64,000 nt of DNA from Methanococcus voltae PS (GTDB lineage: Archaea > AGJL01 > Methanococci > Methanococcales > Methanococcaceae), in contig NZ_JANUCQ010000002.1 in the NCBI RefSeq assembly GCF_024807035.1, positions 310,001-374,000 of the forward strand, given 5' to 3'. Positions within the stretch are counted from its first letter, which is position 1, and the number at the start of each line of letters is the position of its first letter. Positions 11,134-62,784 of the stretch are shown piece by piece. Position numbers and translations under genes: made by a program. The notes beneath the pieces were generated by a model. The model made no database searches. It saw only the letters and a program-made list of their open reading frames with translations, and was not told the DNA's origin.

Positions 11134-12528
11134 TTATTTTCTGAAATTTGGGTGGTATTTTTCGATTAAGTCTTCAGAGATTCTCTTAAGCTCTTCCATA
11201 GGTAAGATAGCTAAGATATCCCATACATAGTCGAGTGTTTCCTCGATGTTTCTGTCTTCGTCGACTCCTTGTGTTACAATTCTGTCTTCGAAAGCTTGAG
11301 CGAATTTTAAGTAAGCTCTGTCTCTGTCTGTAAGTGCTTCTTCCCCTACAACAGCGACTAAGTCTCTTAAACCTCTACCTTCTGCGTAAGCAGCGTAAGC
11401 CTGGTTAATAACTTTTGAGTGGTCGTCTCTTGTTTTTCCTTCGCCGATACCGTTACCCATTAATCTGGATAATGAAGGTAAAACGTCTACTGGTGGGTAA
11501 ACACCTTTTCTGTTCAATTCTCTTGACAATACAATCTGACCTTCGGTAATGTAACCGGTTAAGTCAGGAATTGGGTGAGTAATATCATCGTGAGGCATTG
11601 TTAAAATAGGTATCTGGGTAACTGTTCCTTGTTTACCTTTAACTCTACCAGCTCTTTCGTATAAAGAAGCTAAGTCGGTGTACATGTAACCTGGGTAACC
11701 TCTTCTACCTGGAACCTCGTTTCTTGCTGCTGCAATTTCTCTTAAAGCTTCACAATAGTTTGTTAAGTCTGTTAAAATAACTAAAACGTGCATTCCTTTT
11801 TCGTAAGCTAAGTATTCAGCTGTTGTTAAAGCAATTCTTGGTGTAATGATTCTTTCAATAGCTGGGTCGTCAGCTAAGTTGATGAAAACAACTGCTTTTT
11901 CCAAAGCTCCTGTTTTTCTAAACTCTTCGATGAAGTAGTTTGATTCTTCACTTGTGATACCCATTGCTGCGAATACAACCGCGAACTGTTCTCCTTCTCC
12001 TCTTACTTTAGCTTGTCTTGCAATCTGAGCAGCTAACATGTTGTGAGGTAAACCTGAACCTGAGAAGATAGGGATTTTTTGACCTCTAACTAATGTGTTA
12101 GTACCGTCGATTGTTGAAATACCCGTTTGAACGAAAGCGTTTGGTGAAGCTCTTGATACTGGGTTTAATGGTGAACCGTTAATATCGATTTTTTCTTCAG
12201 AAATAATTTCTGGACCTTTATCGATTGGTTTACCTGCACCATCGAAAACTCTACCTAACATATCCATTGAAACGCCTAATTTAGCTGTTTCGCCTGTGAA
12301 TCTAACTTTTGTTTCACTAGTGTTCAAAGCTGTCGTACCTTCGAATACCTGAACAACTGCTACTTCTTCGTTAGCTTCCAAAACCTGTCCTGTTCTTTTT
12401 TCGCCGCTTGGTGTTGTGATGTCTACGATTTCCCCGTATGAAACACCTTCGATTCCTTCAATAACCATTAAAGGACCAGCAATTCTTGAAACTGATGTAT
12501 ACTCTATGGTTTTTTGCATTGCATCCAT
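11134..12528 (-). CDS. ahaB: A-type ATP synthase subunit B (regulatory nucleotide-binding subunit)
   Basis: AhaB alternates with AhaA in the A1 hexamer; it binds nucleotide but lacks a true Walker A loop. At the P-loop position the sequence reads [12 protein letters not shown], as in archaeal B subunits, and [12 protein letters not shown] and [16 protein letters not shown] follow. I place the start at ATG 12528 ([10 protein letters not shown], 464 aa), six bases after GGAGGG. The 28 residues upstream in the longer frame are Asn/Lys-rich leader sequence without a ribosome site. Length matches the family. Confidence 0.97.
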
Positions 12529-60240: not shown

Positions 60241-60978
<738 letters not shown>

Positions 60979-61035: not shown

Positions 61036-61096
61036 ATTTATTTTCAAAAACTATAAAGAGTCATAGGTTTTATAACATTATATTTGGTTCAATATA

Positions 61097-61486
61097 ATGA
61101 AAATTTTTAAAGAATTAAGAGTTGATAACTTGGAAAATAATTCTGTAATGGACGACCTAAAAAAGATTAATAATTTATGGGAATCTAAAAAAAAGGATAA
61201 TAAAATAGCTTTAGAAAAATTAACGGAATTTATGAGCGAAATTAAAATTAATGCAATGGGAAATGAATTTATTGGAAAGCTTCCTGATGGAAAAACTGAA
61301 CTTATAATGTTTGAAGATATAGACGAAATGCCATTAGATGAATGGATTAAAAAGTATTTCCCAATTATTTTTGGATTCGATAAGGAAATTATAGAAAACA
61401 TGAATTTTAAAGTAAAATTAGAACTATTTAAAGCCTATATGGAAGAATATAAGCATATTTTATCTGAAAAATCCTTTCTGGATTAG
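61097..61486 (+). CDS. Possible tail assembly chaperone (lambda gpG-like)
   Basis: The 129-residue acidic protein has the size and gene order of siphovirus tail assembly chaperones. Its central region PDGKTELIMFEDIDEMPLDEWIKKYFP and following helices are reminiscent of that type. It ends with an overlapping frame encoding a short extension (next entry). ATG at 61097 has a weak ribosome site. No other head or packaging genes flank it: arfC is upstream and a histone gene downstream. I do not know a close archaeal homolog; the assignment is inference from layout. Confidence 0.5.
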   Translation: MKIFKELRVDNLENNSVMDDLKKINNLWESKKKDNKIALEKLTEFMSEIKINAMGNEFIGKLPDGKTELIMFEDIDEMPLDEWIKKYFPIIFGFDKEIIENMNFKVKLELFKAYMEEYKHILSEKSFLD

Positions 61487-61640
61487 GTGGGCCTTCAGCG
61501 AAGAAGCTTACGAGATATATCTTGTATCATCATACTTGAAGATAACCACTTTTGAAACATTAGAACTTAAAAATAAAGACCTTGGAGAATTTTATAGAAC
61601 TTTAGGGTTTGCTTTACGGCTTAAAAATGAAAATATGTAG
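61470..61640 (+). CDS. Frameshift-accessed extension (gpT-like domain)
   Basis: Downstream of and overlapping the previous gene, a second frame is open to TAG at 61638-61640 and encodes NPFWIRWAFSEEAYEIYLVS followed by about 35 more residues. It has no start codon or ribosome site of its own. It can be reached by +1 slippage at TTTC (61475-61478, where TTT in frame could re-pair as TTC) or by -2 slippage on the A run at 61467-61471. Tail chaperone genes in many phages use just such a shift. A disabled gene or sequencing error is the alternative. Confidence 0.45.
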   Translation, partial: NPFWIRWAFSEEAYEIYLVSSYLKITTFETLELKNKDLGEFYRTLGFALRLKNENM

Positions 61641-61684
61641 CTAAATTATTAAATTATAATTGATATATAATTTTGAGGAAAAAT

Positions 61685-62401
61685 ATGGCATCTGAAGATA
61701 ATTTAAACTTAAATGTAAATTTAAGCAAGGAATATTTTGTTGAAGTTGATGAGTTAAAAAAAATATTGAGAAAAGTTAAAAGAATATTTGATAATCCGGC
61801 TAATTTAAAAAATCTACAAATTAACAATGCTAAAAGCGTTAATCTAGTTAAAGCAGATAACAAGAACGATAGTAGTACCTATGGAGATAATAAAAGTAAT
61901 ACGGTTGTAAATTATGGAGTTTACAATATATATAAGAATTATAAGGTATACAAAGACTATAGTTACATTTTGGAAAATTTAAATACATCTGCAAGTGTTT
62001 TATTAAAAAGTAAGCCCAAAAGTAATACATATGAATCGCCATATAATTTAAATAGATTAAATAGTGAAAAAGTCAATAATTTTCATTCCTTAAACGAAAT
62101 AAGCAAAGAAACTAACTCATATATTGGGTATGATTATGGGAGTAAAGAAAATCCAAATATTAGTTTAAATAATTTAAATAACAATGGAAAGGGAGATAAT
62201 AACTCCAAAAGCGACGAAAATTATAAAAATTTGGAAATATCCTTATCAAAAATATATAATAAACTAGATGAGGGTTTCAAAAGTGTTAAAAAAGAAATAA
62301 TAGACAATAAACCTATTATAAATATTGAAGTGCGTGGAAAAGACGTAGATTACGATGTAGAGTGGGAAAAACAAGCTAAAGCCCATTATGAGAATTCTTA
62401 A
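61685..62401 (+). CDS. Unknown protein, possibly a short tape-measure protein
   Basis: The 238-residue protein has a short helical N terminus (EYFVEVDELKKILRKVKRIF), a long Asn/Ser/Lys/Tyr-rich middle and a helical segment near 190-210 before KPIINIEVRGKDVDYDVEWE. ATG at 61685 follows GAGGAAAAAT; a TTG at 61673 is upstream of that site. In tailed phages the tape-measure gene follows the chaperone pair directly, as here, but such proteins are normally much longer. Assignment is from position only. Confidence 0.45.
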   Translation: MASEDNLNLNVNLSKEYFVEVDELKKILRKVKRIFDNPANLKNLQINNAKSVNLVKADNKNDSSTYGDNKSNTVVNYGVYNIYKNYKVYKDYSYILENLNTSASVLLKSKPKSNTYESPYNLNRLNSEKVNNFHSLNEISKETNSYIGYDYGSKENPNISLNNLNNNGKGDNNSKSDENYKNLEISLSKIYNKLDEGFKSVKKEIIDNKPIINIEVRGKDVDYDVEWEKQAKAHYENS

Positions 62402-62583: not shown

Positions 62584-62784
62584 ATGGCAGAACTTCCAAT
62601 AGCACCAATGGAAAGAATATTAAAAAAGGCAGGAGCTGAAAGAGTAAGCAGAGATGCTGCAATTTTGCTCTCAGAAGAATTAGAAGAAATCGCAATGGAA
62701 TTCGCAAAAGAAGCTGTTGAATTATCAGTACACGCTGGTAGAAAAACAGTTAAAGCAGAAGACTTGAAATTAGCTTTAAAATAA
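62584..62784 (+). CDS. Archaeal histone
   Basis: The 66-residue protein is a single histone fold: [20 protein letters not shown], three helices, and the conserved [16 protein letters not shown] end. It packages DNA as dimers and longer filaments. ATG at 62584 follows AAGAAGGTGAGT, a strong ribosome site. A 13-bp stem-loop lies 50 bp after the stop. Confidence 0.97.

Follow-up and report, generated by a model that had tools for sequence, protein, structure and literature searches.

In bacteriophage lambda, the tail assembly chaperones gpG and gpGT are two products of one start, the longer being made by a programmed -1 shift. The viral relatives of the locus described below have the gene order tail tube, G/GT, tape measure. 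In the haloarchaeal virus HSTV-2, the shift in the chaperone gene has been reported as probably +1; UUU_Ynn sequences are prone to +1 slippage, which has been proven for the cassette UCC_UUU_CGU (PMC5009743).

The closest described virus to the locus reported here is MFTV1 (Methanocaldococcus fervens tailed virus 1, MT711370), an infectious siphovirus. Its chaperone pair lies inside a single virus genome, which also encodes an integrase, a membrane protein of 123 aa and an 846-aa tape measure, and is adjoined by the tail tube gene. The gene-transfer agent (GTA) of Rhodobacter capsulatus, RcGTA, resembles the set proposed here in its vertically kept virion cluster, its ectopic loci and its short tape measure, and differs from it in being unrelated in sequence and in having a host of another domain; its tail measures 49 nm and its tape measure about 216 residues (PMC7296036). 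Non-alphaproteobacterial GTAs, including VTA, were said in a 2024 review to be only cursorily characterised, and work cited in that review is the source for the packaging of random host DNA by VTA particles (PMC11841831). The small terminase of VTA was predicted to be Mvol_0412, a protein of 125 aa and 14.6 kDa encoded beside TerL (Sherlock et al.; PMC6854486).

Here we describe a two-frame gene that very probably encodes the tail chaperone of a domesticated MFTV1-like particle, most likely the VTA of the M. voltae group.

A probable two-frame chaperone gene between arfC and a histone gene

The window is a stretch of 64,000 nucleotides (G000:C2:310001-374000) from a genome of 1.78 Mb in 12 contigs, called G000 below. 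On its + strand, the host gene arfC (60259..60978; Pfam RibD_C E=2.5e-58) is followed by a 15-bp box, AAACTATAAAGAGTC (61048..61062), a 129-aa gene, ORF-A (61097..61486), a second frame, frame B (61479..61640), a gene of 238 aa counted from its ATG, ORF-C (61685..62401), and an archaeal histone gene (62584..62784; Pfam CBFD_NFYB_HMF E=3.2e-21). The two Pfam matches bear out the initial annotation, which saw the pair flanked by ordinary genes and not by a prophage. The pair also sits between arfC and histone in G002 and G006. In four congeners that have no virion cluster, only 189-218 bp separate arfC from histone, and a module-free form of this site therefore exists in close relatives. It was also observed that the arfC ORF has 357-360 aa in Methanococcus relatives versus 239 aa in the window, and that the N-terminal extension of the relatives looks Toprim-like by eye.

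Frame B is +1 relative to ORF-A, counts 53 codons after the shift and is open to a stop at 61638-61640. No start codon precedes its conserved part, the first candidate in G000 being a TTG 19 codons past the shift. A search of 61 relatives located both frames, with the same +1 offset, in G002, G006, G024 and G028, which speaks against a chance overlap. With the window, the pairing of a 129-aa-type gene with a startless second frame is present at five loci, to which the comparison is limited; a single genus contributes three of these. No start-codon position for frame B is common to the five. ORF-A is 92% identical to its homologue in G002 and 65% identical to that in G006 over the joined match; identity is 30-42% with G024 and G028, which belong to another family of Methanococcales. 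In G006 a small deletion at the 5' end of ORF-A removes the G000-type start and the frame begins at a more internal TTG, so that the first residues of ORF-A seem dispensable.

The G024 locus is the MFTV1 provirus (100% match to MT711370). In this provirus and in that of G028, genes for a prohead-type protein and the MCP are followed by small head-tail genes, the gene of the 234-aa tail tube, the A/B pair, the 123-aa membrane protein and an 849-aa tape measure ORF, which matches phrog_58 (E=8.5e-16). The homologues of the pair (QNO11487 for ORF-A in MFTV1) therefore stand between tail tube and tape measure. The pair in the window, unlike that of MFTV1, is alone among host genes, is followed by a 238-aa gene and lies 246 kb from the tube gene of its genome. 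The G-GT-H order that had been proposed for the window is found in MFTV1 and G028; in the window, just the side downstream of the pair could conform to it, and there the 238-aa gene gave no tape-measure profile match. The MFTV1 pair occupies positions 11406-11916, of which the public record annotates frame A alone; the GT frame (11756-11916 of MT711370) falls in an unannotated gap of that record.

The profile searches suggested at the outset for the 129-aa and 57-residue products gave no significant match: ORF-A and frame B, like ORF-C, matched Pfam and PHROG entries at chance level at most. The MFTV1 pair, although in the canonical place, likewise had no significant Pfam or PHROG match, which indicates that these databases miss this chaperone branch. 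Scans with chaperone and MCP alignments retrieved from IMG/VR only contigs identical to MFTV1, and found no matches in a collection of genome contigs. Plain ORF-A and plain ORF-C were folded. The AF2 model of ORF-A (pLDDT 71) had a tail assembly chaperone as its best viral fold match, with a probability of 0.99 but an E-value of 0.011 and a TM of about 0.4; a search of the PDB gave no match.

The place of the homologues in an infectious siphovirus and the conservation of the double frame support the identification of ORF-A and frame B as a tail assembly chaperone pair of the G/GT type. The original suggestion of such a pair is strengthened by the same placement and by the gap-free fusion described below, and the fold match agrees with it. 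As with lambda gpG and gpGT, two products would come from one start, the longer by a shift, in the +1 direction here instead of -1; no sequence similarity to the lambda proteins was detected.

A virion cluster without its chaperone segment

In a search of the same genome, the MFTV1 portal, TerL, MCP and tail tube were matched at G000:C2:116-125 kb; the MFTV1 tape measure, unlike these four, had no match in G000. The matched genes are part of a 14-kb cluster (G000:C2:116119-130322), 246 kb from the chaperone pair. One strand carries genes for the portal, TerL, a TerS candidate and a 150-aa protein. The other strand encodes a 79-aa protein, a putative protease, a 112-aa protein, the MCP, proteins of 98 and 125 aa, the tube, a 947-aa Dit protein and proteins of 283 and 316 aa. 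The 947-aa protein contains a Dit domain (phrog_33 E=7.9e-19; Pfam SPP1_Dit) and the 316-aa protein matches Sipho_Gp37 (1.6e-32).

The tube and Dit genes of G000 are separated by 148 bases, and neither a chaperone nor a tape measure gene is present between them, whereas in MFTV1 both stand there. The cluster is also present in G002 and G006, where neither the tube/Dit gap nor the neighbours differ; it is thus vertically inherited, in synteny, across three species. Of 36 genomes, the same five have MCP plus tube, the chaperone pair and significant matches to a helix-turn-helix (HTH) protein described below. The 60 kb around the cluster (G000:C2:96001-156000) showed neither integrase nor replication genes. 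The idea that the pair is a dispersed piece of a tailed particle is well supported by the virion cluster of this genome, from which precisely the chaperone/tape-measure segment is missing, and the proposed look for capsid genes elsewhere led to MCP clusters in G000, G002 and G006.

ORF-C as a probable short tape measure

ORF-C has homologues in G002 (80% identity) and G006 (57% identity). Its designation as a tape measure in the initial annotation agrees with its position after the chaperone and with its helical content, five helices being predicted at low confidence (pLDDT 48), but not with profile comparison, as ORF-C matched no Pfam or PHROG tape measure and its profile did not match the MFTV1 tape measure. 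VTA tails are about 61 nm long and MFTV1 tails about 150 nm, the latter with a tape measure of 846 aa. At 0.15 nm per residue, about 23-25 nm would remain for the ends of the tail in both cases, with ORF-C in VTA and with the MFTV1 protein.

On balance, ORF-C is probably a short tape measure, a reading that we hold with reasonable but limited confidence. It is possible, though less probable, that ORF-C is an unrelated small gene and that the true tape measure is encoded elsewhere or is very diverged: this would agree with the absence of a match to the MFTV1 and PHROG tape measures, and with a dN/dS of 0.24-0.32, the highest of the set. However, ORF-C follows the chaperone, which is the usual place of a tape measure, and searches of G000, G002 and G006 turned up no other tape measure, whereas both proviruses match phrog_58 strongly. 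Furthermore, RcGTA provides an example of a GTA with a tape measure of similar size.

The frame overlap points to a +1 shift at TCC_TTT_C

The decamer AAATCCTTTC, located at the overlap of the two frames, is identical in all five loci, MFTV1 included, although the fused proteins are only about 32% identical. Its context is GAA AAA TCC TTT CTG GAT TAG in Methanococcus and GAT AAA TCC TTT CGC AAT AGA in Methanocaldococcus; in the window, AAA TCC TTT CTG occupies 61469..61480. In MFTV1, the open part of frame B reaches back just 6 codons from the first codon after the shift, and frame A of Methanococcus terminates two codons past TTT; any shift is therefore limited to a few codons around the decamer.

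Several features of this interval are those expected of +1 slippage. First, the slippery TTT can re-pair in +1 (TTT_C) at all five loci; in the window the Phe-tRNA would move from TTT to TTC within 61475-61478. Second, fusion at TTT_C aligns the Methanococcus and Methanocaldococcus proteins without a gap (EKSF-WIRWAF and DKSF-AIEWAL). Third, the codon waiting in the A site is probably slow, judging from its rarity: CTG is used 0.87 times per 1000 codons in G000, where it is third rarest, and CGC 0.14-0.30 times per 1000 in Methanocaldococcus, where it is the rarest. TCC represents 8.4% of the Ser codons in G000 and 6% in Methanocaldococcus. The site resembles that of influenza A PA-X (UCC_UUU_CGU), as both combine UCC_UUU_C with a poorly decoded A-site codon and MFTV1 reads UCC_UUU_CGC; influenza infects hosts of another domain of life and there is no homology, so that the resemblance is mechanistic alone.

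A +1 shift at TCC_TTT_C is thus the most likely event, and the +1 slippage at TTTC envisaged initially is the option that fits all five loci. The second option then offered, a -2 slip on an A run, fares differently. M. voltae-type loci have five A's, and MFTV1 has three A's only, after GAT; the corresponding site of MFTV1 and G028, GATAAATCC, cannot re-pair in -2, and a -2 slip is rejected because the A run is absent from MFTV1. Frame B could also be reached by independent or coupled initiation, and in G006 a TTG stands in frame 13 codons further upstream, but the five loci share no start-codon position. Taken together, entry into frame B by initiation or by a -2 slip is unlikely, given that TTT_C is usable, with a gap-free alignment, in every case.

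A stimulatory RNA structure was considered as a conserved feature of the site and rejected: modest stems are predicted downstream of it in G000 and G002, and none in MFTV1. A Shine-Dalgarno-like AGGTGG is present directly 3' of the shift site (window:61482-61490), and MFTV1 has GAGTGGG at the equivalent place.

A 15-bp box common to three loci and a candidate regulator

The box upstream of ORF-A, a probable promoter or operator, also precedes the + strand operon of the virion cluster. In whole-genome searches, AAACTATAAAGAGTC matched exactly at three places, and no more, per genome in G000, G002 and G006, and at none in G001, G003, G004 and G005, relatives that do not have the set; 0.009-0.018 sites per genome are expected by chance, and as G000, G002 and G006 are related species the shared sites are not independent. 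The bases flanking the box are unlike between loci and partly kept between species. The box contains CTATAAA and may overlap a TATA element. No copy with fewer than 3 mismatches was found in MFTV1 or G028, so the box appears specific to the Methanococcus set.

At the third site (G000:C1:566098), the box is followed by an ORF of 122-137 aa, the C-terminal part of which is homologous to the MFTV1 HTH protein QNO11479 (33% over 57 residues), itself a match to Pfam HTH_3. Within the order, significant HTH matches come solely from the five genomes that carry particle genes (4e-7 to 1e-6 for the two proviruses). The three box loci are best read as a co-regulated set, and the candidate HTH protein, or a factor answering to it, would act through the box.

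Two observations concern these upstream regions. The sole usable GTG of the HTH ORF (G000:C1:566098-566610) lies inside a strong Shine-Dalgarno-like AGGGGGTG, and a nearby downstream ATT, conserved in the three species, may be the true start. A palindrome, TTTCTTAATTAAGAAA, is located upstream of the main-cluster box (G000:C2 about 121265), is nearly kept in G006 and is a possible second operator.

Purifying selection on all parts, and the probable link to VTA

In the comparison of G000 with G002, frame B shows 9 base differences, 8 of them at frame-B third positions; of these 8, 7 leave the codon synonymous and 1 does not. The two other reading frames over frame B contain stops. The dN/dS of frame B was 0.025 for G000/G002 and 0.126 for G000/G006. 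For the regulator, ORF-C, the two chaperone frames and those cluster genes that were compared, values were 0.02-0.24 (G000/G002) and 0.06-0.32 (G000/G006), close to those of the arfC control (0.12 and 0.07, respectively). Purifying selection acts on all parts, frame B included.

In the G006 cluster, TerS counted from MALF is 125 aa long, with a mass of 14.61 kDa. It thus agrees in size and mass with Mvol_0412, itself a published prediction; the TerS proteins of G000 and G002 are longer (154 and 142 aa, respectively). Because of this agreement, we regard the cluster as most likely that of VTA. A further likeness to the published VTA is that the cluster holds structural genes only, with no adjoining integrase. 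The link to VTA, put forward as speculative in the initial annotation, is supported by the cluster, by the identical genome distribution of its parts, by the shared 15-mer and by the TerS match; these genes are probably part of the VTA particle, the tie to the physical particle running through the published prediction of Mvol_0412.

Nothing in the present results ties these genes to measured DNA transfer, and the pair could be the working chaperone of an intact particle that is not VTA but is defective or satellite-like, such as a tail-only device of the tailocin type. We consider this improbable, as TerS matches that of VTA in size and mass, and the TerL, portal, putative protease and MCP genes are under strong constraint, which leads one to expect DNA-packing heads. 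Improbable too is that the cluster and the stray pair, left by deletion, are functionless remnants of a decaying MFTV1-like provirus, an alternative raised at the start which would account for the lack of integrase and replication genes beside the cluster and of the MFTV1 genes m123, 188 and 184, but which is largely refuted by dN/dS values of 0.02-0.32, resembling those of host genes, and is further opposed by the exact 15-mer kept at three loci in three species, by the preserved synteny and by the fact that a frame accessible solely by shifting would not survive decay.

We therefore return to the domesticated, VTA-like particle, which with high confidence is the best explanation of the whole. 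In this model, the chaperone module would have moved from between the tube and Dit genes of the cluster to the arfC/histone site. Most ribosomes would stop at 61484, giving the short chaperone; a minority would slip +1 at UCC_UUU_C, with the rare CUG in the A site, to make the extended GT form (...EKSF-WIRWAF...). By analogy with lambda G/GT, coating of the tape measure would fall to the short part, and the extension would bring in the tail tube protein. A third locus holds the candidate virus-type HTH regulator, and the same box at the three loci would allow their joint switch-on by this regulator or by a factor answering to it. We find it likely, with somewhat less assurance than for the particle itself, that this is an archaeal GTA which needs three unlinked loci, joined by one 15-bp box and its own virus-derived HTH regulator, and whose tail assembly is governed by a +1 shift at a PA-X-like UCC_UUU_C in a chaperone gene detached from the cluster.

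Neither the detached chaperone locus, nor the regulator locus, nor the 15-bp box is described in the openly accessible literature that was searched, and the locus and box are provisionally regarded as new. VTA would gain a parts list that includes its missing tail chaperone, a probable tape measure and, under a candidate regulator, a regulon of three sites; deleting single genes could then test how the particle is produced and controlled and what sets its tail length. Programmed +1 frameshifting in archaea gains a probable and well-conserved example, whose site is common to the infectious MFTV1 and to a domesticated copy. The locus also suggests that a virus assembly gene can move to an unrelated chromosomal place and stay working. 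Finally, integrases 46-55% identical to that of MFTV1 are encoded in G000 away from the cluster (C2:53936-54907, C2:80676-81587 and C3:136624-137745), which suggests that other integrated elements are present in this genome.
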